Notes: generated from the sequence alone by a model not told the origin. DNA of 40,815 bases from Halobacteroidaceae bacterium (GCA_003554585.1 PWGV01000077.1:1-40815); one strand, 5' to 3'. Shown: positions 2,560 to 29,344, counted from the stretch's first letter. Made by a program: numbers and translations.

Positions 2560-2561
2560 TG

Positions 2562-6147: not shown

Positions 6148-6157
6148 TCACCCCCTC

Positions 6158-10400: not shown

Positions 10401-10520
10401 CCTCCCTCCCAGGCTTGGTGAACTCTCCACAAGGTAAACTGGAATTCCCATTTCACCGAGGTCGAAGGCTGCCTGTATTCCAGCAATACCTCCTCCGATT
10501 ACCATAACCGGTTTAGCCAT
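7455..10520 (-). CDS. hdrA: Long HdrA-type flavoprotein with duplicated FAD domain (electron-bifurcating scaffold)
   Basis: This is a 1021-residue protein, larger than the roughly 650-residue archaeal HdrA. Order: first FAD fold (GGGIAG near residue 9); Cys motif CSTCILAPKISDC (about 53-65); ferredoxin-like insert CTGCGECIEKCP (about 105-116) and CGICEKVC (about 160-167); thioredoxin-reductase-like fold; HdrA-specific block VFVCHCGNNIGGVVDV (about 460); second FAD fold GGGVAGMTAA (about 600) without the Cys insert; C-terminal CMSCRNCVEVCP and CKGCGSCASVC. HdrA is the flavin scaffold that bifurcates electrons in heterodisulfide-reductase-type complexes. I choose ATG at 10520, with GGTGGTG upstream, over GTG at 10532. 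It overlaps hdrC by 8 nt. No hdrB lies nearby. Confidence 0.92.
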   Translation of the reverse strand: MAKPVMVIGGGIAGIQAAFDLGEMGIPVYLVESSPSLGGRMAQLDKTFPTNDCSTCILAPKISDCYNHEMVTTYTYSDVLDIQGKEGDFRIKLRKNPRYIIEDACTGCGECIEKCPVKVLDEYNEGLVKRKGIYKYYDQGVPNVVTIDPEHCLKINKDRCGICEKVCDKKAVDYNQKPEEMELSVAAVIYAAGYEAFQGEMVSEYGYLRHPNVITSLEYERYLSASGPTEGHIQRVSDGEEAKKIAFLHCAGSRDTRTDCNYCSAVCCMYSIKQALVTREHSEEIEAIDLYYMDIRAYGKGFERYYNTAEATKGVNFRRSRVARVEEDPDNGQIIVKGLDEEGRFSEEKYDLVVLGVGLKPNTQVTEMMKRLKIRVNKYGFAATDELDPLATSCKGIFTCGVAAGPKDIPESVIEASGAAAQAAIIARRFPELKKEKEDKKEVSYRFVDNERVRIGVFVCHCGNNIGGVVDVPRVTEQSKHLPFVEHSEEIKYLCSPDNLELIGQRIKEKNLNRVVIASCTPRTHETLFRQAVSWGGLNPYLMVMTNIRDQNSWVHREEKEKATKKGFDLIKGAVAKAKKTRALERSRVDKLNKGFVIGGGVAGMTAALQLADIGFPVVLVEKENELGGNANNLLFTPEGRPARRFVDQLREKVLHNDLIETYTGYSVSKVDGYVGNFKIVLDPETEGAGEQKEIEGGIVIVATGAGELETDEYLSGKHDRVISQLQLEEKIRDKNLPKEIKKVFMIQCVGSREEPREYCSRLCCNQAVSNAVYLKERHPEMDITILYRDIRTYGYYEDNYRRARQLGVKFVRFDVEEKPQVEEKNGKLTISYRDPVAEVSRAENADLLVLSKAVVSLENSDVLSKQLKVPLNEDGFFLEAHVKLMPVDFATDGVYLCGLAHGPKNLTESISQARAAAGRAAVILTREYLLTEAMVAQIDPDLCMSCRNCVEVCPYQAIEISEWTGKAEVNKILCKGCGSCASVCRPHAADLHGFSNQELVEEMEAIFADREPAPLKGEGL

Positions 10521-10956
10521 CTTTTTCACCACCGCTGCTCAGTTCTGCGATCACTTTTTTCAGCTCTTTTTTTTGTTCGTGGTGTCCTTGGAGGACCTGC
10601 AAACGATATTCCCAGAGAGCCCTGTCAACATTCTCAATGTCTTCAAGCATCTCCCTTGGGAAATATTCGTTTTCCACTGCCAGTTCTCTTAAAACCCTGA
10701 GTATATCAGCAAATTTCACGTTCTGCGGACAATGGGCCACGCATCTGTGGCACTGGATACATTTCCAGAGCTCCCTGCTACTCAAAATCTCTTCTTTTTG
10801 GCCCATGGTAACCTTGCTGATAATAAGCCTCGGGTTGAAATCCTGGTCAAGTTCACTAATAGGGCAGGTTGCGGTACAGCTCCCGCAGCTATAACAGAGG
10901 TAAATATTCTCCCCTCCGGGGCGATCAGCAACCTCTTTCCTAAAATTAGCCTCCAT
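10513..10956 (-). CDS. hdrC: HdrC-type bis-[4Fe-4S] protein
   Basis: This is a 147-residue protein with two ferredoxin-type motifs, CYSCGSCTATCP and CIQCHRCVAHCPQNV. This is the HdrC layout, which passes electrons from HdrA to the next subunit. In classical complexes that partner is HdrB with CCG domains, but none is encoded here. The C-terminal part (QVLQGHHEQKKELKKVIAEL) is probably helical. It sits directly between metF and hdrA, with 2 nt after metF and an 8-nt overlap with hdrA. The location suggests that in this system it delivers or receives electrons at MetFV. That role is inferred from gene order. Confidence 0.9.
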   Translation of the reverse strand: MEANFRKEVADRPGGENIYLCYSCGSCTATCPISELDQDFNPRLIISKVTMGQKEEILSSRELWKCIQCHRCVAHCPQNVKFADILRVLRELAVENEYFPREMLEDIENVDRALWEYRLQVLQGHHEQKKELKKVIAELSSGGEKDG

Positions 10957-10958: not shown

Positions 10959-11882
10959 TTATTCCACCTCCGGTCTGGGGTACAGGCCTGCTCGTTCAAT
11001 TATTTCGGGGGTTATTTTTTCCCAGCCTACAGGCATCAGGTGTATTCCCCGAACCCCTTCAATTTTCTTGACCCGTTCAATTATTTCAATTGCTACCCGA
11101 ACTCCTTCTTCCTCCGGATCTTCGCATTTTTCCATTCTCTCAATCAGGGAGTCGGGAACGTCCATCCCCGCGACATCGGTTTTCATCATCCGCAGGGCTT
11201 TTACTGACTTGGCGGGAAGAATTCCCGCCATAATATAGGTTTTTTCATGAATACCTCGCTTGCGGACTTCCTCCATCCAGTATTCAAATTTATCCAGGTT
11301 ATAAATGGCCTGGGTCTGGATAAACTGGGCTCCTGCCTCAATCTTTTTTTCTACCTTCATCATCTGCATCTCAAAGGGATCCCCGAAGGGATTGGCAGCA
11401 GCACCGATAAACATCTTGGGAGGCACTTTCATTTCTTTCCCGTTAAGGAGCACTCCCTTGTGGACCATGTCATAAACTGCCCGGATTAACTGGACGCTGT
11501 CCAGGTCGAATACGTTTTTGGACCCGGGATCCATACCAAAACTCTGATGGTCTCCCGTCAGGCAGAGAACATTATTTAACCCCAGGGAACTTGCTCCCAG
11601 GAGATCGCTCTGCAGTCCAATCCTGTTTCTATCCCTCGTTGTTGCCTGGATTATCATTTCCAGGCCTTCTTCCCTGGCGAAATGAGCGGCGACAATGCTG
11701 GACATCCGCACAATAGCTGTCTGATTGTCGGTTACGTTGACCCCATCGACATAACCAACAAGTTTGCGGGCTTTTTTCCTGATAAATTCAACATTAGCTC
11801 CAATCGGAGGCCCTAGTTCGCTACAAACTACGAAATGGCCCGCTTCCAGTTTTTTCTGTAACAAGGACATCGATTCACTCAT
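10959..11882 (-). CDS. metF: Methylenetetrahydrofolate reductase
   Basis: This is a 307-residue FAD TIM-barrel enzyme that interconverts methyl-THF and methylene-THF. Recognisable blocks are VVCSELGPPIGAN, DGVNVTDNQTA, TTRDRNRIGLQSDLLG, NVLCLTGDH and AQFIQTQAIYNL. Length fits bacterial MetF without the C-terminal SAM-binding domain. It overlaps metV by 8 nt; the ATG at 11882 has GGAGT before it. Beside MtgA and MttB genes the enzyme probably runs in the oxidative direction, taking methyl groups to methylene-THF. The redox partner is probably not NAD directly, since metV, hdrA, hdrC and mvhD are linked as in the known acetogen MetFV-Hdr-MvhD arrangement. Confidence 0.95.
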   Translation of the reverse strand: MSESMSLLQKKLEAGHFVVCSELGPPIGANVEFIRKKARKLVGYVDGVNVTDNQTAIVRMSSIVAAHFAREEGLEMIIQATTRDRNRIGLQSDLLGASSLGLNNVLCLTGDHQSFGMDPGSKNVFDLDSVQLIRAVYDMVHKGVLLNGKEMKVPPKMFIGAAANPFGDPFEMQMMKVEKKIEAGAQFIQTQAIYNLDKFEYWMEEVRKRGIHEKTYIMAGILPAKSVKALRMMKTDVAGMDVPDSLIERMEKCEDPEEEGVRVAIEIIERVKKIEGVRGIHLMPVGWEKITPEIIERAGLYPRPEVE

Positions 11883-12549
11883 TGTAATACTCCTTATTGA
11901 CTAATTTCCTTGGTCCACCGTCGCGGTAAGGCTGCCAGTCTTTGGGGTCCTCGAAAACCAGCAGTTTTTCTAAAATATCAAGATCCTTCATGCGGTTGAA
12001 AATAAGTTCCCAGCCACAGTCGATTTCATCATCAACCTCGCATTTCCCATCCTGTGAGCCGCCACAGGGACCGTTTAAAAGGCTCTTGGAACAGCGCGCA
12101 ACCGGACAAACGCCCCCGAAGCGATCCAGAATACATTCGCCGCAGCCTATGCAGCGTTCGGCCCATTCCCCTACTGCAGTTGTTGCCCCGTAAAAAGAGG
12201 TATTAAGTCCGGGGAAAATGAGTTTTTGGGGATGCCTTTCCACCATGTGCTGGACACCTACTCCACAGGCCAGGGAAAGGATAATATCGTGATCCTCAAT
12301 TTTTTCCGCAATGTCATCAATAAATTCGAAATCGCACTGCCGGGTTATTGTATCGGTAGAGATTGTAACCTTCTTACCCTTTTTTCCGTAGTAAAGCTGG
12401 AGAAGGTTGGCCAGGGCTTCTACCTCCCGTTCGCCGCCGGCCAGGCTAACTGTAACGCAGGTCCCGCAGCCTACAATCAGGAGGCTTTCCCAGTTTTCTC
12501 CCAGCATTTTAATAATTTCTTCGGCTTTTTTCTGCTGACCAACAATCAT
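11875..12549 (-). CDS. metV: MetV, zinc/iron-sulfur partner subunit of methylene-THF reductase
   Basis: This is a 224-residue protein of the methylene-THF-reductase C-terminal (MTHFR_C / MetV) family. The N-terminal half has VGCGTCVTVSLAGGEREV. The C-terminal half has the Cys-rich stretch CIGCGECILDRFGGVCPVARC followed by LLNGPCGGSQDGKCEVD, the usual signature. MetV forms a complex with MetF and is needed for its electron transfer. The ATG at 12549 sits 7 nt after GGAGGGAGG and overlaps the upstream stop in an ATGA junction; an earlier in-frame start at 12567 is less likely. Tight overlaps on both sides imply coordinated translation with metF. Confidence 0.93.
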   Translation of the reverse strand: MIVGQQKKAEEIIKMLGENWESLLIVGCGTCVTVSLAGGEREVEALANLLQLYYGKKGKKVTISTDTITRQCDFEFIDDIAEKIEDHDIILSLACGVGVQHMVERHPQKLIFPGLNTSFYGATTAVGEWAERCIGCGECILDRFGGVCPVARCSKSLLNGPCGGSQDGKCEVDDEIDCGWELIFNRMKDLDILEKLLVFEDPKDWQPYRDGGPRKLVNKEYYNE

Positions 12550-13883
12550 AACTGTCCCTCCCTCCACCTGTCAAGAAGATTTGCCAGATCTTGTTCCATG
12601 GGAGGAGATAACCTCTCAAACCTGACCTTATCCTCACCTAGTTCGAGGCTGGCCAGGGTTTCATTTACCTCATCAACAATTCGCTGGCCGCGTTGATCTC
12701 CTTCCAGATGTTTGCAAGATTCTTCAAAACACCCCAGGATCAATATTCTATCCTCCGGATCCTGCAGGGAAGCATAAATATCTTCTTTTTTTATGCTGCA
12801 GGCACAGGGTATTTCCCGGGTGATAAAACCTTCCAGGTCTTCTTGGGGCATTTTTTTTCTGGCAGTTGCGGCCGAGTTTTCGCACATAAAAACCTGCAAA
12901 CCCGAGCCTTTTTCTTCCTGTTCATCGGCAATTGATATTGCACCTGCCGGGCAGTGAGAGATGCAGGCATTACATCCCCAGCAGGCATCTTTCAGTACTT
13001 CCATTGCATCCTGTTCCTTATTCTCTTCCAGGGCAGCATGGGGGCAAACCCGGAAACAGGTATAGCACAATATACACTTTCGGTCATCTACCTCCCGGTC
13101 ATCTTCAACAAGGGGTTGCAGGTTATTTTTTATGGCTTCGATTTCTTCCAGTGTAAACTTAATTTCATCCTCGAACCCGGCTAGCCCGTTGGGACTGCGA
13201 GCTCCCCCTACAGCATAAACTCCCCGCCGACCGGTTAAAGTTGGGGCAAGGTAAACATTTTCAGCCTGCAAATAACCTTCTTCATTGGGAATAATCCTTA
13301 AAACCCGGGCAAGTTTTTCCAGTTCTAGGGAAGGTTTTAAAAGAGGTGCAGTATATATTTTCCCTTCCACATCCATTGTTGCCCCACCACGGGTGTAGGA
13401 GACCTTGTTGGGTGGATTTATTTCAAATTTTCCCTGCTCATAGCGGAAAAATGCTACCCCCGCCCGCCTGGCTTCTTCATATAACTGGTCGGTACCCTCA
13501 GTAAAACGGAGGGACCTGTAGAAATAGTACACCTGGCGGGAAGGATTATCTCTGGCAGCCTGCAGGGCTTTTTTAAGCCCGATCCCGTTAATAAAGGCCG
13601 AGGCAATTTCTTCATTGTCCTGGATGAAAATTAGTGTGTTTTCCCGATCCGATTCTAAAGCTTCGGAAAAAACGGGAAGTTCGGGCACGCTTTCCTCCTG
13701 TTGGTGGGGAAGATTTACAACAATTGCCCGGGTTTTTACTTCTTTAACCTTCCCGTTTTCCCGATAGCGGAGGGAAAAATCACCAATTCTGCCCTTGCAG
13801 CTTGTTATTTTTTCTGGTTCAACCTGCCTTTTTTCCAGGGAGGGGGTTTCTACTGGATTTCCGATGAAAATTACATCATACAT
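12546..13883 (-). CDS. HdrA-like domain protein fused to ferredoxin and MvhD-like domain
   Basis: This is a 445-residue protein that is not a complete HdrA. Residues about 1-255 resemble the nucleotide-binding part of an HdrA or thioredoxin-reductase fold (ending GVYAVGGARSPNGLAG) but lack a GGGxxG FAD motif at the N-terminus. Two ferredoxin motifs follow (CILCYTCFRVCP, CWGCNACISHCP). The C-terminal about 110 residues look like a degenerate MvhD: VFMCENSA, IPCACSIK and LGCFEESCKHLEG correspond to the MvhD Cys blocks. Together with the preceding 352-residue gene it mirrors the layout of hdrA plus mvhD, cut at other places. It overlaps both neighbours (8 nt and ATGA). Function is inferred as a second electron-transfer branch for MetFV. 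Confidence 0.75.
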   Translation of the reverse strand: MYDVIFIGNPVETPSLEKRQVEPEKITSCKGRIGDFSLRYRENGKVKEVKTRAIVVNLPHQQEESVPELPVFSEALESDRENTLIFIQDNEEIASAFINGIGLKKALQAARDNPSRQVYYFYRSLRFTEGTDQLYEEARRAGVAFFRYEQGKFEINPPNKVSYTRGGATMDVEGKIYTAPLLKPSLELEKLARVLRIIPNEEGYLQAENVYLAPTLTGRRGVYAVGGARSPNGLAGFEDEIKFTLEEIEAIKNNLQPLVEDDREVDDRKCILCYTCFRVCPHAALEENKEQDAMEVLKDACWGCNACISHCPAGAISIADEQEEKGSGLQVFMCENSAATARKKMPQEDLEGFITREIPCACSIKKEDIYASLQDPEDRILILGCFEESCKHLEGDQRGQRIVDEVNETLASLELGEDKVRFERLSPPMEQDLANLLDRWREGQL

Positions 13884-14934
13884 CAGCCAGCCCTCCTGAC
13901 TTACAAAGCTGTTTTTGTTTTAAGAGCCTGTAAGCAACTCTTTTTCCATCACTAATTGTTGCAGCAATATCGCGGGGTCCTTTAATTGACCCTGCGAGAT
14001 AGATCCCGGTTTCTTCTTCATCTACAAGGGGGTAAAGGAAACCATAAGCATCAAGCTGCATATTAAAGAGCATCGACCAGCGTTCATTAACATCATTGGG
14101 ATGTAGTCCTTCAGAAAGGACCAGAAGATCTGCATCCAGGGTCTCCATTCTACCCTCCTGCTGGTTTTCATAGAGGACCCTTAATTTATCATCAACTTTA
14201 CTGACATCAATAGGTTTACAGTTTACATAATTTATACCGGCCTGATCCAATTCCGCAAAATTCACATCAAGAAAATACCCGGCTTCCTGAAGGTCAATGA
14301 AAAATATTGTGGCTTCCAGATCCGGGTAAAAATGTTTTAAAACCCGGGCCATCCTGTAAGAATAACCGCAGCATATCTTGGAACAGTAACGGGCTTTTTC
14401 CTGAATGCTGCGGGAACCGTTGCACTGGATAAAGACGACGGAATTCGGCTTAGAACCGAACTTTAAGATGTCTTCAGGATCGGAATGATCGGCCCGTCTG
14501 CGCATAAATTCTTCCAGCTGGCTGGCCCAGATTACCCGGTTATCATCAGAGAATTCTGGCGTGCCCGTCTCCAGGTCTGACCATTTAACAAAACCTGTTG
14601 CTAAAACGATTGACTCAACATTTTCAACTTCAACAAAATCGCCATCTTTTTCCACGCTCAAATTGTAATCCCCAGGTTTGCCTGTCAGATCATTAACCAG
14701 GCCCTGGTAAATTATCTCAATCTCCGGGGAATTCTGGGCCGCTATAATTGTCTCGTCAACCAGGCACAGATTACATTTGATACATTTATCAACAGCTTTA
14801 CAGCCATAATCTTTTATATTGCCTCCCAATGTATCCGTTTTTTCTATTAGGGTGACTTTATTGCCGGCTCTGGCCAGTTCAACAGCCGCGGTAGTTCCGG
14901 CAATTCCGCCCCCAATTACCGCAATTCTGCTCAT
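13876..14934 (-). CDS. HdrA-like FAD protein (N-terminal half of a split HdrA)
   Basis: This is a 352-residue flavoprotein with an N-terminal FAD motif VIGGGIAGTTAAVELARAG and a LGG block. The Cys cluster YGCKAVDKCIKCNLC stands where HdrA has its FAD-proximal cysteines, and RYCSKICCGYSYRMA corresponds to the CNYCSAVCC block of HdrA. It ends after the thioredoxin-reductase-like fold (GIYLAGSIKGPRDIAATISDG) with no C-terminal ferredoxin. That part is supplied by the next gene, which overlaps by 8 nt. The start is ATG at 14934 after AAGGAGGAG; an extension to 15084 would run into mtgA and is rejected. It may form a heteromer equivalent to a full HdrA-MvhD. Family is sure; the partner is inferred. 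Confidence 0.82.
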   Translation of the reverse strand: MSRIAVIGGGIAGTTAAVELARAGNKVTLIEKTDTLGGNIKDYGCKAVDKCIKCNLCLVDETIIAAQNSPEIEIIYQGLVNDLTGKPGDYNLSVEKDGDFVEVENVESIVLATGFVKWSDLETGTPEFSDDNRVIWASQLEEFMRRRADHSDPEDILKFGSKPNSVVFIQCNGSRSIQEKARYCSKICCGYSYRMARVLKHFYPDLEATIFFIDLQEAGYFLDVNFAELDQAGINYVNCKPIDVSKVDDKLRVLYENQQEGRMETLDADLLVLSEGLHPNDVNERWSMLFNMQLDAYGFLYPLVDEEETGIYLAGSIKGPRDIAATISDGKRVAYRLLKQKQLCKSGGLADV

Positions 14935-14965
14935 TTTTCTCCTCCTTAGGCCTGAGTTACTCCGG

Positions 14966-15763
14966 TTATTTGGCCAGTTTACCCTCCCGGGATGCTTTAA
15001 TATAATTGGTTCCATATGGATCCCTATTGAGGAGAACTTCAGTGGCCCGAACCAGGCTGACCAGGTAATTATCAAGCGGGTCAATTATCGCTGCATCCAA
15101 ACCTCTACCCATTGCCAGGACAATGAAAGCCTGGTTGAGAAGCGCTCTGCTGGGAAGCCCATAAGAAATATTACTAAGACCACAGGTAATATGGGCTCCG
15201 GTTCCCATCCTGGTTATTCCCTCAATAGTATCAAGAGCCTGCATTCCGTACTCACCATTTACCGCGATTGGCTTGATCAGGGGATCAAGGAAAACATTTT
15301 CCAGGGGTACCCCATCCCGATCCAGATCATTAAGCAGCTTTTCAGCAATACCCAGCCTTTCTTCTGCGGTTTCGGGCATCCCTTCGTCTCCCATGCAAAG
15401 GGCAATAACCTTGGCATTATATTCCCTGACCAGAGGCATAATTTTATCATATCTTTCTTTTTCTGCAGTAATAGAATTAATCATGGGAGTTCCCTTGTGA
15501 GTTTTAATTGCAGCTTCTAAAGCCTCGGGACTCGGGCTGTCGAGGGCCAGCGGTTTATCTACAACTTCCTGGACTTTTTCCACCAGCCAGAGCAGGTACT
15601 TGGTTTCCTGCTGGACAAAAGCCCCGGCATTTACATCAATATAATCCGCTCCACCCTCATCCTGCTTTTTAGCTATATCCTGAATATAATCAACATTACC
15701 TTCCTTCATGGCTTCCCGCATTACTTTCCTCGTGGAGTTAATAAGTTCTCCAATAATTATCAT
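14966..15763 (-). CDS. mtgA: Methyltetrahydrofolate:corrinoid methyltransferase (MtgA type)
   Basis: This is a 265-residue pterin-binding TIM barrel (dihydropteroate-synthase-like). Blocks seen: IIIGELINSTRKVM, YIDVNAGAFVQQE, PLALDSPSPEALEAAI, GTPMINSI, DPLIKPIAVNGEYG and TCGLSNISYGLP. This family moves methyl groups between THF and a corrinoid protein (MtgA, AcsE, MtvA). In this operon it would take the methyl from the methylated corrinoid proteins encoded upstream and make methyl-THF for MetFV. The ATG at 15763 has only a weak ribosome site (GAGAAAG). A strong one lies 30-40 nt upstream in front of a 10-codon open frame, so its translation may be coupled to that frame. Confidence 0.9.
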   Translation of the reverse strand: MIIIGELINSTRKVMREAMKEGNVDYIQDIAKKQDEGGADYIDVNAGAFVQQETKYLLWLVEKVQEVVDKPLALDSPSPEALEAAIKTHKGTPMINSITAEKERYDKIMPLVREYNAKVIALCMGDEGMPETAEERLGIAEKLLNDLDRDGVPLENVFLDPLIKPIAVNGEYGMQALDTIEGITRMGTGAHITCGLSNISYGLPSRALLNQAFIVLAMGRGLDAAIIDPLDNYLVSLVRATEVLLNRDPYGTNYIKASREGKLAK

Positions 15764-15815: not shown

Positions 15816-16472
15816 TTAAAAAAGCTTTTCCCTGACTACCATTCTCCCCGGTTCTACAACTAAAAATTCTTTGTCCCACTTTCCTGTCACAAGTTTTTTT
15901 AAAATTTCTGCAGAACCTTCGATTATTTGCATTTCAAGACCCAAAAACTCTGCAGCCCTCCGGGAATATTCTATATATTTCTCGGGATTTTCAGTGCCCG
16001 GGGTCTTGATATAAACCAAGCGCTTGTAATTTTTATATTCTTCTCCCATTACCCAGCGGGCGTTTTCCTCGCCAACTCTTTCAGTATAATCTTCAAACTG
16101 GGTTAGGGGGTCACCACCGTGTTCAATCCAGCCCCGGCTTAAATAAATAGTCCCGGGTTCACCGGAAAACTCTTCGTTATAACGTTCCCGCGAACCCAGC
16201 AGCAAGGCTATACAATCGTGAGCCCTGGGAATAATCAGTTTCTTTTTTTTGCTTTTCAATCCCAGGGTTCCGTGGCTGCAGAGGCCGTAGCCCAAAAGTA
16301 TACTATCCCATTTATCAGGGGTTTCATCGATTTTTTCCTGCAAGGTTTTCTGCAGCTTATGGGGATGGCGGTGCAGACCGTATTCCAAAAATTCCATTTC
16401 CATATTTTCGGGGGCGAAGGCCTGAATTTCTGTTTTAACTGTTGAACAGGCAATTATTTTTTTAATTTTCAT
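15816..16472 (-). CDS. DUF1638 protein associated with corrinoid methyltransferases
   Basis: This is a 218-residue protein of the DUF1638 family, often found beside corrinoid methyltransferase genes and of unknown function. Conserved-looking blocks are IACSTVKTEIQAF, LGYGLCSHGTLGL, IIPRAHDCIALLLGS and YLSRGWIEHGGDPL. The Cys and His residues in the second and third blocks could bind a metal or cofactor. The start is ATG at 16472 in GGGGTGATG, overlapping the hyuA-like stop by 11 nt; an earlier frame opening at 16556 lies within the neighbour and is rejected. Its place between the ATPase and mtgA suggests a role in corrinoid handling or in substrate preparation. This is inference. Confidence 0.8.
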   Translation of the reverse strand: MKIKKIIACSTVKTEIQAFAPENMEMEFLEYGLHRHPHKLQKTLQEKIDETPDKWDSILLGYGLCSHGTLGLKSKKKKLIIPRAHDCIALLLGSRERYNEEFSGEPGTIYLSRGWIEHGGDPLTQFEDYTERVGEENARWVMGEEYKNYKRLVYIKTPGTENPEKYIEYSRRAAEFLGLEMQIIEGSAEILKKLVTGKWDKEFLVVEPGRMVVREKLF

Positions 16473-18468
16473 CACCCCACGGTCGACCAACAGCTGAAAA
16501 CTCAATAATTGTCTCAATAAAGAGCCGGTTTTGTTCCTCTTCCCCCTCAGGAACAAAACCGTACAGATTGGTGAACTTATCTTCCCGGTGCTCCATTATT
16601 TCGATATCTAAAGCTCCCGAGTTTTCTGCTTTTTCGTATACGTGCTCTCTCCCTATCTTCCGTCCGTACTGGACGGCTTCCTCCATTTCTAAGAACCCCT
16701 CCCGGCCCGCGGGGGTATAAACAAGATAGCCCCCGTGTTCGCCGGGTTTTACTGTTACCTGGATTCTCTCAATCACCTTACCGCTGACCGTTCCCACCGC
16801 GTTTGCCACTTCCGCCGATTCAGGAAGCTGCAGGGAAGCGTTGAGCTTCTCGGCAATCTGGGGGAAGTACGCTCCCACCGGCGCTCCTACGGCGATTAGA
16901 GGTATGTTTACCCGGGTGGAAAATTCGATCAACCTTTTTTTTTCTTTTCCTTTCCCAAAAATCTTCTGTAAAAAGAAAGTGGATCCCCTGTCTTCAAGCG
17001 ACAAACCTTCCTCGCGACATCCAGCCAGGACTTCAATCAACAGTGATGAGACCTGGTAATAAATTTTTTCCAGCACTGCTTCCATAAAAGCCTGACCATC
17101 TTCGGACATCCGGCGAGCCATTATCTTCATGCCAATTTCAGCCGCTTCTTTATTCCACTGGTCAAAATCACCAGAAACGTGCAGAAGATCGGTGGGTGTC
17201 AGGGAGGCCCGGTGTAATGAGCCAACATTAACCAGCCTCTTCCAGGGGATTACTTCTGGATTCTTTTGCAGTTTCCGCCCCAGGTGGAAAAGAGTGTGCG
17301 GGCTTTCCTTGAGCAATTCCAGCATTAAGCTTTCAGTCTCGCTTAATTCCAGGTTTGCCGGGTCTTTAATATGCACAAGGATAGTGGTGGGCTGATTTTC
17401 CAGGGGAAAGTAAATTTCTTCCCAGATTTCCTTCAATTCCTCCAACAGCTGGGGAAACCGATCTACAACCCAGGCCAGGGGGAAAACCCTCTGAGGGCCT
17501 ATTGAAAGCTCTCCTGAGCTGGATACTTTAATCAAACTATCTCCGCCGAGGCCAACGGTCGTAATATCCGCTGCCTTAACCCGGGTCATCCAGCCTCCTA
17601 CCCGGGCCCCTTTCTGATTAAGGGAGGGACGACCATCCTTGATGATTGCAATATCAGTTGTAGTTCCTCCCATATCCACAACAACGCCTTCTTTCAGGCC
17701 GGTAAGAGCCATGGCTCCAATAATGCTCGCGGCAGGACCGGAAAGAAGAGTTTCTACCGGGCGTTCCCGGGCCATTTTTTCACTGATTAGGGTCCCATCA
17801 CCTTTAACAACCATTAAGGGGGCACTTATTCCCCGGGTTTTTATATTTTCTTTTACTGCATCTATTAAGTTGGTAATCAAAGAGATCAGGCGGGCATTGA
17901 AAACTGCGGTAACTGTTCTCTCCCTAAAACCCAGGTCAGAAGAAAGCTGATGACCGCTAACCACCGGGCAACCTGTCATTTCCGAAATCAGGCGAGAAAC
18001 CTGGATTTCCTGTTTGGGGTTGCGGACACTCATATAGCCAGAAACTGCAAAAGCTTCAACTTTTCCTTCCAGGGATTTAACTGCTTCCTCGGCTTCCTTT
18101 AAATCAACTTCGCGGGTTATTCTTCCCCGCACATTACAACCACCCCTTATACTTGCATAATGGGGGGTGGGCAGGGGCCCGTCCGGTTCAAATCCAACTT
18201 GAATTAAACCGACTTCGGCGCCCTGCCCTTCAACAATGGCATTGGTTGCCAGGGTAGTGGATAAGGATATCATTTTGATCTCACTTAAGTTATATTCATC
18301 GGGCCACTGGTCCAAAAGCCCCTGCAGGCAATTATCAATGGCCAGATGTAAATCGTGCCTGGTTGTAACTACCTTGGTTTTGCAGAGGATCTCCTTTTTA
18401 TCCAGTTCCCAGATTACTCCGTCGGTGAAAGTTCCTCCGGTGTCAATTCCCAATGCCAGATTTGCCAT
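16462..18468 (-). CDS. HyuA-like hydantoinase/oxoprolinase-family ASKHA ATPase
   Basis: This is a 668-residue ASKHA-fold protein. The N-terminal motif GIDTGGTFTDGVIWE and the second phosphate motif VDMGGTTTDIAIIKDG are typical of the hydantoinase A/oxoprolinase family, whose members use ATP in ring opening or in acetone-carboxylase-type reactions. The usual partner HyuB (COG0146) is not present in the window, and the gene sits between an mttB-type gene and DUF1638. The start is ATG at 18468, 8 nt after GAGGAGGAG. Family members occur in methyltransferase clusters. Possible roles are ATP-dependent activation of a corrinoid system (the fold is shared with RACo) or opening of a cyclic N-methyl substrate. 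The substrate is unknown. Confidence 0.82.
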   Translation of the reverse strand: MANLALGIDTGGTFTDGVIWELDKKEILCKTKVVTTRHDLHLAIDNCLQGLLDQWPDEYNLSEIKMISLSTTLATNAIVEGQGAEVGLIQVGFEPDGPLPTPHYASIRGGCNVRGRITREVDLKEAEEAVKSLEGKVEAFAVSGYMSVRNPKQEIQVSRLISEMTGCPVVSGHQLSSDLGFRERTVTAVFNARLISLITNLIDAVKENIKTRGISAPLMVVKGDGTLISEKMARERPVETLLSGPAASIIGAMALTGLKEGVVVDMGGTTTDIAIIKDGRPSLNQKGARVGGWMTRVKAADITTVGLGGDSLIKVSSSGELSIGPQRVFPLAWVVDRFPQLLEELKEIWEEIYFPLENQPTTILVHIKDPANLELSETESLMLELLKESPHTLFHLGRKLQKNPEVIPWKRLVNVGSLHRASLTPTDLLHVSGDFDQWNKEAAEIGMKIMARRMSEDGQAFMEAVLEKIYYQVSSLLIEVLAGCREEGLSLEDRGSTFFLQKIFGKGKEKKRLIEFSTRVNIPLIAVGAPVGAYFPQIAEKLNASLQLPESAEVANAVGTVSGKVIERIQVTVKPGEHGGYLVYTPAGREGFLEMEEAVQYGRKIGREHVYEKAENSGALDIEIMEHREDKFTNLYGFVPEGEEEQNRLFIETIIEFSAVGRPWGDEN

Positions 18469-18498: not shown

Positions 18499-19953
18499 CT
18501 AGCCTTTGAGTTTTTTTTCAGCATCTATTACAATCTGTCTGAGCTTCTCTTCAACATCCTTGGGTAAGGGGTCTGGTTTGTGAGTTTCAAGGATATTGAT
18601 TACTTTGTCGTTACTGCGCTGGAAGAGGTTTTTCTCTCCTTCTTTTACCCAGTTTTCATATATCTTGCGCTGGAACAACTCCGGGTAGTAAGTTTCGGTT
18701 TTATAATGGTTCATGGTATGTTCCTGAGCAAGGTAATGTCCACCATGGCCTACTTTATCAATTACATCAAGAGCCAGAGTTTCTTCATTCACTTCAATTC
18801 CCCTGGTTATTCTGCGGGCGAATCCAATTAGTTCATCGCAAACTGTCAAGTATTCCAGAGAAGCAGTATTTCCATGCTCAATATATCCAACATCGTGGTT
18901 TAAGTTCGCCCCTGACATGGAAGTTGTCAGGATGGAAATTGCCCCTTCAATTGCTGCCTGCTCATCAACAACCTTGGAGTCAGTGCAGCCGCAGGTTCCG
19001 AACATGGGAATATCGAGGAAGCGGGAAATATCTGCCAGGCCTGCCTGCAGCAGGTGGAATTCTGGAGCTCCATAAGCAAAAATTGTAGTCTTCATATCCA
19101 TGATCGTAAAAACTCCGCCCATGATGAATGGACTACCTTCACTGGTTTCCTGATTAAGAACGAGACCGCTCAAACTTTCAGCGAGTCCAGTAGCCAGTCC
19201 ACCAGCCATTGTTATGGGTACTGTTCCACCAAACATGGGGCAGGGTGTGTAAACAACGGGCAGTTTTTTCTTGGCAGCCAGGACCAGTTTCTGCGCTGAA
19301 TCCCCGGGATGCTGGAGGGGAGAAATTGGTTCCGCATAGAGAGTCATAAAGGGGTTGCGCTGTAGTTCCTTTTCTCCACCGGCTACAATTTCACACATTT
19401 TGATTATATCAGAATATCCCTCAACATCTATTGCAGTAATTACAATGGGCTTGGAGGTGTTGAGAACCATAGCTTCGAACTGATGCCTGTCGTAGATTTC
19501 CTGGGGAACGTCCTGGACAATTCCCAGGGACATAATGAAGTCGATGTTGGGCAGGGCATCCAAAACCTTGGAAGCCATGGTTACTGTTTTCTTGCTGGTT
19601 GGGATCCTGTTATTGGTATAGGGGTCAATGAAAAACGGCGTATCAGAGCCCGAACCGAAGTAAGCGTTGTTGCCCTCCATTTCCATAACCCTTTTCCCGG
19701 TCCTGCTGTTGCAGAGGGTTACTTTGGAAGGAACAGTTCGCAATGCTTTTTCTACCAGTTTAACCGGAATCCGAACTCTTTTTCCTTCTACGGAACAGCC
19801 AGCCTTTTCCAGGATTTCCAGTGATTCTTTATCATGATAAACTACACCTGTTCTTTCCAGTATCTCCATGGCCGCTCCCAGTATATGTTTACACTGGTCA
19901 TCTGAGAGGACCTGAAGGTCAGCAGATGCATTTATTCCGAAATTACTTCTCAT
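18499..19953 (-). CDS. MttB-family (non-pyrrolysine) methyltransferase, second copy
   Basis: This is a 484-residue COG5598 TIM barrel. The segment corresponding to the Pyl site in trimethylamine methyltransferase reads GTCGCTDSKVVDEQAA, with no UAG. The active-site neighbourhood MDMKTTIFAYGAPEFH and the tail block VGHGGHYLAQEHTMNHY match the glycine-betaine-type group. It would demethylate a quaternary amine onto the corrinoid protein encoded 24 nt upstream (19978-20613). The start is ATG at 19953 after AGGAGAGGTGG. By eye it shares roughly half its residues with the copy at 20629-22119, so the two probably differ in substrate (for example glycine betaine against another betaine). Which substrate cannot be decided here. 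Confidence 0.9.
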   Translation of the reverse strand: MRSNFGINASADLQVLSDDQCKHILGAAMEILERTGVVYHDKESLEILEKAGCSVEGKRVRIPVKLVEKALRTVPSKVTLCNSRTGKRVMEMEGNNAYFGSGSDTPFFIDPYTNNRIPTSKKTVTMASKVLDALPNIDFIMSLGIVQDVPQEIYDRHQFEAMVLNTSKPIVITAIDVEGYSDIIKMCEIVAGGEKELQRNPFMTLYAEPISPLQHPGDSAQKLVLAAKKKLPVVYTPCPMFGGTVPITMAGGLATGLAESLSGLVLNQETSEGSPFIMGGVFTIMDMKTTIFAYGAPEFHLLQAGLADISRFLDIPMFGTCGCTDSKVVDEQAAIEGAISILTTSMSGANLNHDVGYIEHGNTASLEYLTVCDELIGFARRITRGIEVNEETLALDVIDKVGHGGHYLAQEHTMNHYKTETYYPELFQRKIYENWVKEGEKNLFQRSNDKVINILETHKPDPLPKDVEEKLRQIVIDAEKKLKG

Positions 19954-19977: not shown

Positions 19978-20613
19978 TTAGCGGCCTACCAGTTCGATGG
20001 CCAGATCCTTGGCCGAGGCTGCATCAGGTGCCCAGCCGTCGGCGCCAATTTCATCCGAAAAATCAGAAGTTACCGGTGCTCCACCAATAATTATTTTAAC
20101 TGAATCTCTCAGACCTTCTTCTTGCAGGATCTCGATAGTATCCTTCATTGCCAGCATGGTTGTAGTCAGGAGAGCACTCATGCCCACTATGTCGGGCTTG
20201 TGTTCTCTAACTGCTTCGGCAAACTTCTCCGGTTCAACATCCATTCCCAGGTCGATTACTTCCATGCCGCCGCTTTCCATCATCATGCCAACCAGGTTTT
20301 TCCCGATATCGTGAAGGTCACCGGCTACTGTTCCCAGGACCACCTTACCGGTCGAGGTTACTTCCCCTTCAACAAGCAGGGGCTTAACCAGATCCATACC
20401 AGAATTCATTGCCCTGGCAGCCATGAGAACTTCGGGAACATACATGTCTCCCTCTTTAAACCTCTGGCCTACAACGTTCATTCCCTTAATCAAACCTTCG
20501 TTAATAATAGCTGCAGGTTTGGAACCTTCATCAATAGCCTTTTGAGTCAATTCAGTGGCTTTTTCCACATTACACTCGATAATCGCATTTTGCAGGGCTT
20601 CAAAATCTGCCAT
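19978..20613 (-). CDS. Methyltransferase corrinoid protein (MtbC/MtgC-like), copy 1
   Basis: This is a 211-residue two-domain corrinoid carrier. An N-terminal four-helix cap (residues 1-90) is followed by a B12-binding Rossmann domain. The base-off/His-on motif is GDLHDIG (D-x-H-x-x-G), with GMSALLTTTM and IIIGGAPVT completing the cofactor pocket. It accepts methyl groups from the MttB-family enzymes and passes them to MtgA. It is about 90% identical by eye to the copy at 22142-22777; differences cluster in residues 18-40 and 84-92. It sits between two mttB-type genes, 15 and 24 nt from them, and has a good ribosome site (GGGGGAG). Confidence 0.95.
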   Translation of the reverse strand: MADFEALQNAIIECNVEKATELTQKAIDEGSKPAAIINEGLIKGMNVVGQRFKEGDMYVPEVLMAARAMNSGMDLVKPLLVEGEVTSTGKVVLGTVAGDLHDIGKNLVGMMMESGGMEVIDLGMDVEPEKFAEAVREHKPDIVGMSALLTTTMLAMKDTIEILQEEGLRDSVKIIIGGAPVTSDFSDEIGADGWAPDAASAKDLAIELVGR

Positions 20614-20628: not shown

Positions 20629-22119
20629 TTATTTCTTTTTGGCCTTTTGGGCCTTATTGGCTTCCCGCTCTTCCGCCTTTTCCACAATCGAGTCAATCTC
20701 TTTATTAACTTTTTCAGACAGCGGCTTGGGCTGATGTTCTTTGAGTATTGAATGGAGTTTATCTCTCACCCTATCTCCCATGCTTGAACTATTCGCTTTT
20801 TTCTGCCAGCCGTCATGCCTCATCCGGTTGATTAGGGTGGGGAACCAGGTTTCTTTTTTAAAGTTATCCATGGTATGGAGTTCACCAAGATAATGCCCTC
20901 CTGGACCAACCTTATCAACTACATCCAGGGCCAGGGTATTTTCGTTGATCTCAATACCCCGCATGAACCTCTTGACCATGGCTATAATTTCATCATCCAT
21001 AACCAGTTGTTCTAAAGATCCAGTTGATCCGGATCCGGTGTAACCACAGTCGTGGACCAGGTTTGCCCCGGACAGAGCTGCCATAAGTATACTCATTGCT
21101 GCTTCTCCGGCTGCCTGGCCGTCGAGAATATGGGCATCAGTGCAACCAGCAGTGCCGAATACGGGCATTTTCATGTGGTGTGCGACTTCAGCAATCCCGG
21201 CCTGCATGGTGTGAAATTCAGGACTGCCATAGCTGAAAACAGTCGTTTTCATATCCATAATCGCATAAACCCCGCCCATAATTATGGGAGTTCCGGGCCT
21301 TACCAGCTGGGAAACAATAATCCCCACCAGACTCTCTGCAACACCCAGGACGAGCGTTCCGGCCAGGGTTGCCGGTGCAGTTGCACCTGACATTACACAG
21401 GGAGTATACACGATGGGGATCTTATTTTTGGCTGCAAACACAGCCTTGGCTATAGCTTCTTCTGAGTGTAAGAGCGGAGAGCTCGGTTCAGAATAAAGGG
21501 CTAAAAATGGTCTCTGCTGGAGGTTTTCCAGTCCTCCTACAACCACCGCTGCAATATCAGTAATAGCCTGGTACTGGTCAATATCAAAACCCCAGTGGAC
21601 AATAGGCTTATTGGTATTGGATACCAGGGCCCTGAAGGCATGTACATCGGACAGGGTGTCGGTAACCCCGGTGGGGGTTCCCAGATCCTGCACAAAATCA
21701 ATGTTGGGCAGGGCATCGCAGACTTTAGCTACGTTTTCAGTATCGCTTATCACCGGACGGCGCCTTTCCCCTGTAAAGGGATCGCGATGGAAAGTATTTG
21801 TGGGTCCGGGTCCATAATAAGTTTTATTATCCTGCAGAACCATTGCCTTGTTGCCAAGTTGATCATAAAGAGTAACCCTGGACGGAGCACTGCGAACAGC
21901 CCATTCGCTTAACCCTACAGGGATCCTCACCCTGTTGCCGTCTACCCAGCAACCACCCTTTTTCAAAATTTCCAGTGACTCTTCATCGTAAATCTTCGCC
22001 CCGGTTCTTTCCAGAACTTCTGTTGCCGCGGAAAAAATATCTTCTCTCTGGGCATCACTTAGAAGCCGGAAATTCACGGTTTGATTAACCTTGTAACGGG
22101 ACTTAACGAAATTTCCCAT
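20629..22119 (-). CDS. MttB-family (non-pyrrolysine) methyltransferase, first copy
   Basis: This is a 496-residue COG5598 enzyme. The Pyl-equivalent segment reads GTAGCTDAHILDGQAAGE and is uninterrupted. MDMKTTVFSYGSPEFHTMQAG and VGPGGHYLGELHTMDNF are the family landmarks. It would pass a methyl from a quaternary amine to the corrinoid protein encoded just upstream. The start is ATG at 22119 after AAAGGAGAGG. The frame is open to 22248, but that extension overlaps the corrinoid gene and is rejected. The C-terminal tail is Lys/Glu/Ala rich (KAEEREANKAQKAKKK) and probably disordered. As the first methyltransferase after the sigma-54 promoter it may be the main enzyme of the operon. Confidence 0.9.
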   Translation of the reverse strand: MGNFVKSRYKVNQTVNFRLLSDAQREDIFSAATEVLERTGAKIYDEESLEILKKGGCWVDGNRVRIPVGLSEWAVRSAPSRVTLYDQLGNKAMVLQDNKTYYGPGPTNTFHRDPFTGERRRPVISDTENVAKVCDALPNIDFVQDLGTPTGVTDTLSDVHAFRALVSNTNKPIVHWGFDIDQYQAITDIAAVVVGGLENLQQRPFLALYSEPSSPLLHSEEAIAKAVFAAKNKIPIVYTPCVMSGATAPATLAGTLVLGVAESLVGIIVSQLVRPGTPIIMGGVYAIMDMKTTVFSYGSPEFHTMQAGIAEVAHHMKMPVFGTAGCTDAHILDGQAAGEAAMSILMAALSGANLVHDCGYTGSGSTGSLEQLVMDDEIIAMVKRFMRGIEINENTLALDVVDKVGPGGHYLGELHTMDNFKKETWFPTLINRMRHDGWQKKANSSSMGDRVRDKLHSILKEHQPKPLSEKVNKEIDSIVEKAEEREANKAQKAKKK

Positions 22120-22141
22120 TATACCCTCTCCTTTCCTCGAG

Positions 22142-22777
22142 TTAACGACCCACCAGGTCCATGGCCAGGTCTTTGGCGGATGCTGCATCGGGTGCCCAGC
22201 CGTCAGCACCAATTTCATCTGCAAAATCAGATGTAACAGGTGCTCCACCGATAATTATCTTGACTGAATCCCGCAGGCCTTCTTCCTGAAGAATTTCAAT
22301 TGTGTCTTTCATGGCCAGCATGGTGGTGGTTAAAAGTGCACTCATTCCTACAACATCGGGCTTGTGTTCCCGGACGGCTTCGGCAAACTTCTCCGGATCA
22401 ACATCCATCCCGAGGTCAATTACTTCCATGCCGCCGCTTTCCATCATCATTCCTACAAGATTTTTGCCAATATCGTGCAGGTCACCGGCTACTGTTCCCA
22501 GGACCACCTTCCTTGCGGTTGCAACCTCTCCCTCTACCAAGAGGGGTTTGCAAATATCCATTCCAGAATTCATTGCGCGAGCAGCCATTAAAACTTCGGG
22601 AACATACATGTCTCCCTCTTTAAATCTCTGGCCTACTACGTTCATTCCTTTAATCAAACCATCATTAATTACATCTGCCGGGCCGGCCCCCTGGTCAATA
22701 GCCTGCTGGGTTAATTCCGTAACCCGTTCTACATTACACTCGATAATCGCATTTTGTAAAGCTTCAAAGTCTGCCAT
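22142..22777 (-). CDS. Methyltransferase corrinoid protein, copy 2 (first gene of operon)
   Basis: This is a 211-residue corrinoid carrier with the same layout as copy 1: helical cap, GDLHDIG cobalamin-His motif, GMSALLTTTM and GGAPVT. It is the first gene after the sigma-54 promoter. Its ATG at 22777 follows AGGAGGAGGG. Being promoter-proximal fits the high amount of corrinoid carrier needed relative to the methyltransferases. The near identity with copy 1, in contrast to the diverged MttB partners, suggests either recent duplication of the carrier or gene conversion that keeps both carriers compatible with the same MtgA and activase. Confidence 0.95.
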   Translation of the reverse strand: MADFEALQNAIIECNVERVTELTQQAIDQGAGPADVINDGLIKGMNVVGQRFKEGDMYVPEVLMAARAMNSGMDICKPLLVEGEVATARKVVLGTVAGDLHDIGKNLVGMMMESGGMEVIDLGMDVDPEKFAEAVREHKPDVVGMSALLTTTMLAMKDTIEILQEEGLRDSVKIIIGGAPVTSDFADEIGADGWAPDAASAKDLAMDLVGR

Positions 22778-23067: not shown

Positions 23068-23083
23068 TGCAAAAAGCGTACCA
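23068..23083 (-). promoter_or_regulatory. Sigma-54 promoter of the methyltransferase operon
   Basis: The minus strand reads TGGTACG-CTTT-TTGCA. It matches the sigma-54 consensus TGGCACG-N4-TTGCW with one change and the exact GG-N10-GC spacing. The predicted start is near 23057. A sigma-54 activator gene ends 211 bp upstream. Confidence 0.85.
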
Positions 23084-23285: not shown

Positions 23286-23300
23286 TTCTCAAATTAAGAA
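23286..23300. promoter_or_regulatory. Candidate activator site (UAS), TTCTCA-N3-TAAGAA
   Basis: This is one mismatch from the palindrome. It spans the stop codon of the activator gene. Its centre is 18 bp from that of the site at 23268, slightly under two helical turns, which would suit cooperative binding. Confidence 0.6.
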
Positions 23301-25069
23301 ACCTGGATCTCCTTTAATTTTCTATACAGGGTTGCCCTGCTGATCCCCAATGTTGCTGCGGCTTTTTCTTTACCCTCGGTAGAAAAGCCAAATCTTTGCA
23401 GTGCCTTGCTGATTGCTTCTCTTTCCAGGGCATCAAGGGTGGGTATGGTTCCCACTTCTTCTCCCTGGCGGAAATTCAACAGCCTTTCGGGAAGGCTCTT
23501 CAGGGAAATTTCCGGACCGGTTTCAATATTGACTGCATATTCAATGGCATTCTCCAGTTCCCGGATATTACCCGGCCAGGGATATTCCAGGAAAATCCGC
23601 CGGGTTCCTTCCTGGAAATCGGAAATGTTTTTCCCCAGCTGGGTGGAATACATGTCAAGGAAAAAATGCATCAAAAGGTTAATATCTTCCTTCCGCTGCC
23701 GCAGCGGGGGGATATAGAAAGGAATAACATTTAGGCGGTAAAAAAGATCCTCTCTGAACAGCCCCTCCTCAATTAACCTTTCTAAATCCTGGTTGGTAGC
23801 CGCAATAATTCTAACGTCAACTTCTTTGGTACTGACACCACCCACTCTTTCTATTTGCCTGGTTTCAATTACCTGCAGCAGGTCCACCTGAAAACTCAGG
23901 GGCATATCACCAATCTCGTCCAGGAAAATTGTTCCCTCGTGGGCAAGTTCAAATTTCCCCGGTTTACCACCCTTCTTTGCTCCCGTAAAAGCCCCTTCAT
24001 CATATCCGAAAAGTTCGGATTCTAAAAGGGAATCGGGAATCGCTGCGCAGTTCACCGTAACGAAAGGTTTCCCCTTGCGGTGACTTTCCTCGTGAATAGC
24101 CTTGGCAAAAAGACTTTTTCCAGTTCCCGTTTCACCCTGAATAAATATTGTGGAGTCGGTATTGCAAACCCTGCGCATCCTGTTTTTTATCTCAATCAAC
24201 TCGTTGCTTGTCCCCTTAATCGCATCCAGGGTTCCTTTTTTCTCTTCACCAATTAGTTTGCTGGCCAGTTTGCGAATTTCTTCTCCCTTGCGGAAAGAAA
24301 TTACCGAACCCTTAATTTCTTCACCTTCATAAATGGGAGTAATACTACAGAATATTTTCAATTCCCGCTGACCATCAATATCCAGGGTCATTTCCTTCTC
24401 ATAAAAATCACTTCCCGGGTCCTCCTCGAAGTGGAGAAGGGGATCAAAATCGGGAAAAACTGAAGAGATATGCTTTCCGGTCCTATCTCCATTTAAAGAT
24501 AGGATTTTCCGGGCCGATCCGTTGATATTGATTATATCTCCCCTGGCATCAAGGGCAATTATCCCCTCGTGAACAGAGTTAATGACAGTTTCAAACTGAT
24601 TGGCGAGGGTGGTAACCCTTCCCCTCATCCGCTTTTCATTTAAAGTTGTCACAATAAAGCTGGTTACATTGTTGAGAAAATTTAGTTTTTTATCAAATTC
24701 ATCCAGAAGGATTCCTTTCTGATCTTCATTTAAGGCCAGGAGGGATACGGTGCCAATTTTTTCCCCGTTATGAAAAATGGGGCGCATGGCAAAGGCAACC
24801 ACGGTGCATTTATCCGAATAATCACACTGTTCACAGTAATGGCTCTGTTTGGTATCTTCAATCAGGATGTGGCTATCAACCCAGGACTGGATAACCCGGT
24901 CGGTTGTGCAATCCTCGTTGTAAACCACTCCTACCTCTTTTTTATACCAACCTGTCCCGGCAATTACCTCCAGATTGTTATCGATTATTGCCAGTTCAAC
25001 ATCCAAAACCGCTGCAAAAGCGTCAGAAACCTGCTGCAAAAAACCTTTTATGTCCTTGAGTTTTTCCAT
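23294..25069 (-). CDS. Sigma-54-dependent transcriptional activator with GAF-like Cys-rich sensor and PAS domain
   Basis: This is a 591-residue enhancer-binding protein. Residues 1-145 form a GAF-like sensor with cysteines at about 54, 79, 82 and 88 (CEQCDYSDKC). Residues about 155-265 are a PAS domain. The AAA+ domain follows with Walker A GETGTGKS (about 312), GAFTGA (about 359), Walker B GTIFLDEIG (about 379) and arginine-finger region LFYRLNVIPF. The C-terminal Fis-type helix-turn-helix is EKAAATLGISRATLYRKLKE. The ATG at 25069 follows AGGGAGAGG and is preferred over the ATG at 25093. It most likely activates the sigma-54 promoter at 23068. The palindromes at both that promoter and its own promoter suggest autoregulation. 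The ligand is unknown; a methylated amine, corrinoid or redox signal is possible. Confidence 0.93.
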   Translation of the reverse strand: MEKLKDIKGFLQQVSDAFAAVLDVELAIIDNNLEVIAGTGWYKKEVGVVYNEDCTTDRVIQSWVDSHILIEDTKQSHYCEQCDYSDKCTVVAFAMRPIFHNGEKIGTVSLLALNEDQKGILLDEFDKKLNFLNNVTSFIVTTLNEKRMRGRVTTLANQFETVINSVHEGIIALDARGDIININGSARKILSLNGDRTGKHISSVFPDFDPLLHFEEDPGSDFYEKEMTLDIDGQRELKIFCSITPIYEGEEIKGSVISFRKGEEIRKLASKLIGEEKKGTLDAIKGTSNELIEIKNRMRRVCNTDSTIFIQGETGTGKSLFAKAIHEESHRKGKPFVTVNCAAIPDSLLESELFGYDEGAFTGAKKGGKPGKFELAHEGTIFLDEIGDMPLSFQVDLLQVIETRQIERVGGVSTKEVDVRIIAATNQDLERLIEEGLFREDLFYRLNVIPFYIPPLRQRKEDINLLMHFFLDMYSTQLGKNISDFQEGTRRIFLEYPWPGNIRELENAIEYAVNIETGPEISLKSLPERLLNFRQGEEVGTIPTLDALEREAISKALQRFGFSTEGKEKAAATLGISRATLYRKLKEIQVS

Positions 25070-25106
25070 TGCCCTCTCCCTTTCAGAATACATTACAGAA
25101 TTTTGT

Positions 25107-26490: not shown

Positions 26491-26515
26491 AACCCGGTTA
26501 TTAATCAACCGGGTT
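26491..26515. terminator. Bidirectional rho-independent terminator
   Basis: AACCCGGTT/AACCGGGTT stem with a 7-nt loop. In the plus direction it is followed by TTTATTTT, and on the minus strand by TTCCCTTTT. It serves the MFS gene and also overlaps the last codons of the convergent nitrilase-family gene. Confidence 0.85.
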
Positions 26516-29212: not shown

Positions 29213-29286
29213 CCGAGGATCTTCCCTTCCCCAAAAGTCCTCACCAATTAAAATCCCTTGAATAAATTCTGAAATATTTTTTCAAA

Positions 29287-29318
29287 AAATCCCCCCGGCC
29301 CTTAAACCGGGGGGATTT
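29287..29318 (-). terminator. Rho-independent terminator after the BCCT transporter gene
   Basis: AAATCCCCCCGG/CCGGGGGGATTT stem of 12 bp, followed on the minus strand by TTTTTT-type sequence. It lies 27 bp downstream of the stop. Confidence 0.88.
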
Positions 29319-29344
29319 AAAGTCACCTCGAAATAACTTTCTTT

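Follow-up and report, generated by a model that had tools for sequence, protein, structure and literature searches.

The locus analyzed here raises the question of what a HyuA-type ATPase does in an operon for corrinoid-dependent methyl transfer when no HyuB is encoded beside it. The window, i.e. the whole stretch of DNA that was analyzed, comprises 40,815 nucleotides from a salt-loving Halobacteroidaceae bacterium. The original prediction described a HyuA-type gene that lacks HyuB, overlaps a DUF1638 gene and lies between methyltransferase genes; it suggested that the pair might repair or load a corrinoid, arguing from the kinship of HyuA with RACo, or might open a cyclic N-methylated substrate. 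The description of the locus is borne out by an overlap of 11 bases, by MttB-type and MtgA flanks, and by the location of the genome's HyuB on another contig.

A betaine-type corrinoid operon

The genes are listed in order of transcription, and the HyuA-type protein is called HyuAx throughout:

22142-22777, minus strand: corrinoid protein, second copy (211 aa; B12-binding domains, Pfam)
20629-22248, minus strand: second MttB-superfamily methyltransferase (PF06253, E 4e-95; true start probably internal to the ORF)
19978-20613, minus strand: corrinoid (B12-binding) protein, MtgC-type (211 aa; B12-binding and B12-binding_2)
18499-19953, minus strand: MttB-superfamily methyltransferase, non-pyrrolysine (484 aa; PF06253, E 6e-98; no in-frame TAG)
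16462-18468, minus strand: HyuA-type ASKHA ATPase, HyuAx (668 aa; Hydant_A_N and partial Hydantoinase_A)
15816-16472, minus strand: DUF1638 protein (218 aa from the ATG at 16472; PF07796)
14966-15763, minus strand: MtgA-type methyl-corrinoid:tetrahydrofolate methyltransferase (265 aa; Pterin_bind; NF005719 above cut-off)
13876-15084, minus strand: HdrA-like (Pfam)
12546-13883, minus strand: HdrA/FlpD-like (Pfam)
11875-12567, minus strand: MetV-like (Pfam)
10959-11882, minus strand: MetF-like (named by sequence similarity and gene order)
10513-10956, minus strand: HdrC-like (named by sequence similarity and gene order)

Further features of the window are:

122-1858, minus strand: RACo-type reductive activator (578 aa; RACo_C_ter E 1.2e-74, Raco_middle E 4e-57, RACo_linker, Fer2)
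23068-23083, minus strand: candidate sigma-54 promoter, TGGTACGCTTTTTGCA (upstream of the first corrinoid gene; 1 mismatch to consensus)
23294-25093: sigma-54-type activator gene, which by its placement would adjoin the candidate promoter

The hallmarks of an mtgBCA cluster are present, namely a non-pyrrolysine MttB, a corrinoid protein, MtgA, and BCCT genes nearby (28118-30946), and judged by this gene content the operon is a betaine-type corrinoid methyl-transfer operon. Substrates differ within the MttB family, and the MttB-type protein encoded directly upstream of the HyuAx-DUF1638 pair (18499-19953) scores 427.7 bits with TIGR02369, under the cut-off of 525. Downstream of the pair and of MtgA (14966-15763), the Hdr/MetV/MetF/HdrC gene order is kept in other families of the class. 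The number of sigma-54-like sites in the window, which include a second one at 36562-36577, is not above chance.

Several other genes surround the operon. The end of the cluster (122-4176, minus strand) holds RACo, which also scores 394 bits with the AcsV profile, the S component of an ECF transporter (1958-2593), and a third, different MttB-type gene (2755-4176); the ORF at 1958-2593 had been taken for a corrinoid protein from its length until the domain scan identified the transporter component. NAD/FAD-binding, Fe-S and FlpD-type proteins are encoded at 4266-7454 (minus strand) beside a 1025-aa HdrA-like protein, and together these could possibly form an electron-bifurcating module with MetFV. 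One BCCT ORF (28118-29212, minus strand; 364 aa) matches the first two thirds of the profile alone and is possibly broken; its neighbor at 29345-30946 is a full-length BCCT gene. A nitrilase-type carbon-nitrogen hydrolase (26501-27508, minus strand) lies between MFS and BCCT transporter genes.

The closest described counterpart is the glycine betaine cluster of Ca. Formimonas warabiya DCMF (Ga0180325_114734-114742), which has the same content and order, with a corrinoid protein, MttB, a 668-aa HyuA-type protein, MtgA and BCCT; similar betaine clusters occur in Ca. Frackibacter and Sporomusa ovata (PMC9768040). The DCMF HyuA-type protein (Ga0180325_114738, 668 aa) is listed as 'Unknown', and betaine strongly induces it together with mtgBC (PMC9768040). 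In the DCMF cluster, unlike in the window, the HyuA-type gene and mtgA have no DUF1638 gene listed between them, and the missing HyuB and the HyuA subfamily were left unanalyzed in that study (PMC9768040). According to its legend and text, the betaine operons of Desulfitobacterium and Acetobacterium fall into a group of their own, which corresponds to the other half of the DCMF cluster (PMC9768040), and thus HyuAx is probably not essential for the chemistry.

HyuAx is a distinct HyuA subfamily

HyuAx was defined as the group of proteins that match the window's HyuA-type protein over its whole length in a search of 399 Bacillota genomes. It is found in 30 of them, with scores of 449-855 bits for nearly full-length members and lower scores for the most distant or partial matches; a far larger second group of HyuA proteins aligns over approximately residues 4-332 only, at less than 190 bits. 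HyuAx is thus a distinct HyuA subfamily, cleanly separated in the search. In Pfam, Hydant_A_N matches residues 6-164 (E 1.6e-32) and Hydantoinase_A matches residues 184-326 (E 4.8e-33), the latter covering positions 1-145 of the 291 in the profile only.

The ATP site is kept. Residues D9, G11-T13, T15, D16, K32, D265, G267-T269 and D272 are invariant across the 39-member alignment of HyuAx. The phosphate-binding residues of caprolactamase CapA are D11, T15, D18, K32, D295, T299 and D302 (PMC8453981); these correspond to HyuAx D9, T13, D16, K32, D265, T269 and D272, and it is because all of these equivalents are invariant that the site is regarded as intact. An AlphaFold model prepared from 39 sequences (pLDDT 87) has as its top fold matches N-methylhydantoinase, acetone carboxylase beta, acetophenone carboxylase and caprolactamase A (E 1e-25 to 1e-32). 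HyuAx thus shares the whole-length fold, the phosphate-binding motifs and Lys32 with the HyuA/CapA proteins of N-methylhydantoinase, 5-oxoprolinase, caprolactamase and acetone carboxylase beta; it differs from them in having no HyuB/CapB partner, in a C-terminal half unrecognizable by sequence, and in its tie to corrinoid operons.

Sequence matches to solved HyuA proteins all end at profile position 324. A profile of the C-terminal half finds HyuB-less relatives of 565 aa (E down to 2e-22) and gives no match (E 0.8) to the HyuB-paired HyuA of the same genome. The contacts between CapA and CapB are located in the C-terminal half of CapA (PMC8453981), and by sequence comparison the corresponding HyuB-facing half of HyuAx has diverged from HyuB-paired HyuA. 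The Bacillota relatives of ~565 aa, paired with a histone-deacetylase-like protein, are also HyuB-less and recognizably related to HyuAx in the C-terminal half, but have corrinoid neighbors at 0 of 19 loci and are often found beside mutSL. At 17 of the 19 Bacillota loci sampled (L118-L132, L136, L137) a HyuB-less HyuA-type protein of ~550-660 aa is accompanied by a partner of ~450-495 aa, a representative of which matches the histone deacetylase Pfam family; mutS/mutL-like genes are often adjacent.

Similarity to ATPases that serve B12 enzymes is limited. HyuAx and RACo/RamA have in common the ASKHA ATPase superfamily and the corrinoid-operon setting; HyuAx, however, has neither the Fe-S domain nor the RACo middle and C-terminal domains, and RACo is present besides it. 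No conserved set of cysteines was found in HyuAx beyond C47 (87%) and one minor position, and therefore an Fe-S site is unlikely. GlmL (MutL, PF13941) is an ASKHA-type accessory gene of the B12 enzyme glutamate mutase. Its similarity to HyuAx amounts to one brief motif segment that just reaches the Pfam cut-off (residues 244-285 only; 27.4 bits at a cut-off of 27), and NCBIfam GlmL gives 28.3 against a cut-off of 475.

HyuAx occurs with corrinoid genes and without HyuB

The original prediction would have been contradicted by a HyuB encoded elsewhere that consistently accompanies HyuAx, and such a pattern is not seen. No HyuB is present in the window; the sole HyuB of the genome (C205:5983-7533) is on another contig, directly beside a separate, different HyuA of 663 aa. 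No HyuB is close to HyuAx at any locus, and only 8 of 29 HyuAx genomes have any HyuB at all; HyuB acting in trans on HyuAx is rejected as a general rule by this count.

MttB is found in 26 of 30 HyuAx genomes vs 31 of the 369 others (57 of 399 overall; Fisher p 5e-21, kinship ignored), and RACo in 28 of 30. Within 6 kb of HyuAx, genes for a corrinoid protein, MttB, MtgA, RACo or DUF1638 occur at 28 of 40 loci; within the same distance of the closest HyuA relatives (~565 aa) they occur at none of 19, a comparison that supports the predicted tie of this HyuA to corrinoid operons. The position of HyuAx between MttB or a corrinoid protein and MtgA is fixed across families. In one genome without MttB (G034), HyuAx belongs to an operon that encodes the methanol methyltransferase MtaB, and its neighbors on the two sides are a corrinoid protein and MtgA; HyuAx is therefore tied to corrinoid transfer and not to one substrate. 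Several HyuAx paralogues occur per genome, and at approximately 12 of the 40 loci HyuAx is an orphan copy, surrounded by housekeeping genes and with no corrinoid genes beside it. These counts cover related genomes and loci, which are not independent, and many of the genomes are draft assemblies; genes beyond the scanned proteins were named by similarity to window proteins.

Some further neighbors were recorded. One HyuAx copy (L042) adjoins a glycine-cleavage T-type gene. ORFs of ~1,180-1,230 aa near some HyuAx or DUF1638 genes had been considered as MetH by length; those scanned (L077, L115) are DNA polymerase III alpha, and the large ORF of L074 groups with that of L077. In Methanosarcina acetivorans, predicted hydantoinase genes (MA4395-MA4396) adjoin the mtaCB2 methanol methyltransferase genes (PMC11619418), possibly another HyuA-corrinoid neighborhood, in a methanogen.

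DUF1638 is linked to corrinoid proteins

PF07796 matches the window's DUF1638 protein over its full length (160.5 bits, cut-off 27), and the genome holds a single copy. Residues C9, E15, H34, C65, D86 and C87 are invariant in 42 DUF1638 sequences. In the structural model (pLDDT 95) all of these except E15 are located where the first sheet strands end or immediately beyond, a placement that would gather the invariant residues together. No PDB fold match to the model was obtained at E<=0.001, and no solved relative was found by sequence.

DUF1638 was sampled at 39 loci across Bacillota. The 12.5-kb stretch contains a B12-binding gene at 24 of them (adjacent to DUF1638 in 14) and RACo at 11 (adjacent in 4); most DUF1638 genes are near corrinoid proteins without HyuAx. 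In one genome (G330) DUF1638 is fused to a corrinoid protein in a single open frame (L082:5171-7021, minus strand), with the DUF1638 profile match at residues 176-340 and the corrinoid protein at 392-578. Price et al. reported that Phaeobacter DUF1638 mutants are rescued by methionine and that DUF1638 co-occurs with a RamA-like activator, and offered no mechanism (PMC5764234). The Phaeobacter inhibens proteins and those of the window share the family and the context link to corrinoid proteins and RACo-type activators (PMC5764234); DUF1638 of P. inhibens, however, is tied to a split methionine synthase, whereas that of the window adjoins a HyuA-type ATPase in a catabolic operon. A 2025 paper reports a higher abundance of DUF1638 on N-osmolytes, glycine betaine among them (PMC12478193). 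Because of the published genetics, the corrinoid-protein neighbors, the fusion and the invariant C9, C65, C87 and H34, DUF1638 is the better-supported corrinoid part of the pair.

The pairing is conserved and optional

The ORF as listed for DUF1638 begins at TTG 16556; from the junction sequence, translation most likely begins at the ATG at 16472 and runs to the stop at 15816, and this start gives the overlap with the HyuA-type stop codon. Among 59 genomes of the window's class, 23 have HyuAx, 24 have DUF1638 and 20 have both (p 5e-9, kinship ignored). The two genes are adjacent in 14 of the 23 HyuAx genomes, representing 6 genera and 3 families: the window's genus (5 genomes), a second genus of its family, one genus of family f2, and three genera of family f144. 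Because the arrangement is repeated in 13 other genomes of the class, with 6 genera in all, the adjacency is more than chance. In f7 and other f2 genera HyuAx and DUF1638 are not adjacent, and MtgA directly follows HyuAx.

Outside the class one genus has the two genes side by side (f53; G047, G086, G154), and in G318 HyuAx adjoins a remnant DUF1638. The DUF1638 gene behind HyuAx in G154 (L066:8268-8923, plus strand) is split into two frames, and that genome has other DUF1638 copies. Most HyuAx operons outside the class have no adjacent DUF1638, and 5 of 30 HyuAx genomes have no DUF1638 at all. A special co-occurrence of the two genes across Bacillota beyond their shared link to MttB is weak: among MttB-bearing genomes, DUF1638 is present in 24 of 26 with HyuAx vs 23 of 31 without. 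The adjacency within the class is thus stronger evidence for the pairing than is Bacillota-wide co-occurrence. The predicted occurrence of HyuA-DUF1638 linkage in other genomes is confirmed by this survey (13 other genomes in the class, one genus outside); the linkage is real and conserved, yet optional.

Proposed function and alternatives

The reading that we prefer, with moderate confidence, is that HyuAx and DUF1638 both serve the corrinoid protein as accessory factors in betaine-type methyl transfer. It builds on the operon, its conservation, the intact ATP site, the HyuA fold, the absence of HyuB, and the linkage and fusion of DUF1638 to corrinoid proteins. In the proposed cycle MttB would transfer the methyl group of methyl-X to the Co(I) corrinoid protein to give methyl-Co(III), and MtgA would pass it to tetrahydrofolate, followed by MetFV/Hdr. 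When the cofactor is oxidized to Co(II), DUF1638 would most likely act directly on the corrinoid protein together with RACo, working through a putative metal or Fe-S site of C9, C65, C87 and H34. HyuAx would most likely spend ATP to reshape the corrinoid protein or its complex with MttB, presumably through direct contact with the corrinoid protein, and this remodeling may expose the cofactor for reduction (by RACo with DUF1638), loading or exchange. A more elaborate version, which we consider doubtful, is that the two proteins jointly constitute a second machine for corrinoid repair or exchange, driven by ATP, which would work beside RACo on MttB-type corrinoid proteins; a HyuA-fold protein would have lost its hydrolase partner and now act on a protein, and DUF1638, whose fold has no PDB match, would be its metal- or Fe-S-bearing, corrinoid-facing partner.

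The closest solved relatives of HyuAx activate small molecules and not proteins, which counts against the preferred reading, as do the orphan HyuAx loci, the separate group of betaine operons in Desulfitobacterium and Acetobacterium, and the weak co-occurrence with DUF1638 among MttB-bearing genomes. The main rival, unlikely in our estimate, is that HyuAx is a metabolic enzyme working without HyuB: at the expense of ATP it would turn a metabolite of the betaine pathway into an activated carbonyl or acyl phosphate, the candidate substrates being bicarbonate, dimethylglycine, sarcosine and a cyclic N-methyl compound. It shares its fold and ATP site with enzymes whose phosphorylated substrates are lactams, hydantoins, acetone or bicarbonate, the DCMF homologue is betaine-induced (PMC9768040), and the HyuAx copy beside the glycine-cleavage T-type gene fits as well. 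However, HyuB bears the metal site where ring opening takes place (PMC8453981), and it is near HyuAx at no locus and present in 8 of 29 of the genomes; HyuAx also occurs in the methanol-type operon of a genome without MttB, and its HyuB-facing half is divergent. Opening of a cyclic substrate, the other function originally suggested, is disfavored because HyuB is missing and HyuAx is found in that MtaB operon without MttB. The metal-bearing partner might instead be DUF1638, its Cys/His site substituting for HyuB such that the two form one enzyme. Overlapping or closely spaced genes in several lineages and the three invariant cysteines and histidine of DUF1638 are consistent with this, but it is made very unlikely by the HyuAx operons and genomes described above that lack an adjacent DUF1638 or any DUF1638, by the DUF1638 genes near corrinoid proteins without HyuAx, and by a Foldseek search of the DUF1638 model that returned no HyuB match.

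That HyuAx senses or regulates something in these operons, or is carried along in them as a passenger, without any function at the corrinoid, would account for its several paralogues per genome and for the orphan copies in housekeeping neighborhoods; it is rather improbable given that HyuAx keeps its place between MttB or corrinoid protein and MtgA from family to family, that the ATP site is invariant, and that the DCMF protein is strongly induced. Least credible is that HyuAx is an alternative RACo that itself drives Co(II) reduction. It is an ASKHA ATPase in corrinoid operons, and two HyuAx genomes showed no RACo; but its conserved cysteines offer no Fe-S site, no RACo domain is matched in Pfam, and a genuine RACo is encoded in the same cluster and in nearly all HyuAx genomes. 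HyuAx as a RACo is rejected on these grounds, and the sequence largely refutes this reading. The original argument from RACo kinship falls with it, the fold being that of HyuA/CapA and RACo itself being present at 122-1858. The direction of corrinoid repair or loading is supported, for DUF1638 by published genetics (PMC5764234); corrinoid maintenance is the best-supported direction, reached by a different route.

Implications

A HyuA-type gene (HydA) in betaine methyltransferase clusters was already drawn and measured in 2022 (PMC9768040), and DUF1638 has been linked genetically to corrinoid reactivation since 2018 (PMC5764234). No report of the HyuA-DUF1638 pair was found in the openly searchable literature (subscription papers and preprints being outside its reach). 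As far as that literature can be searched, what is new is the delineation of the HyuB-less subfamily from related proteins, the conservation of its coupling to DUF1638, the fusion of DUF1638 to a corrinoid protein, and the invariant Cys/His set.

Corrinoid methyl transfer powers acetogenesis and supplies methanogenesis from betaines, methylamines and methanol, and the upkeep of its easily oxidized corrinoid cofactor is only partly understood. HyuAx genes of this kind should not be annotated as N-methylhydantoinase. Most likely HyuAx and DUF1638 help keep the pathway's vitamin-B12-type cofactor working, and they offer two concrete, testable candidates for its upkeep: a HyuB-less HyuA-type ATPase, and a DUF1638 protein with genetic support.
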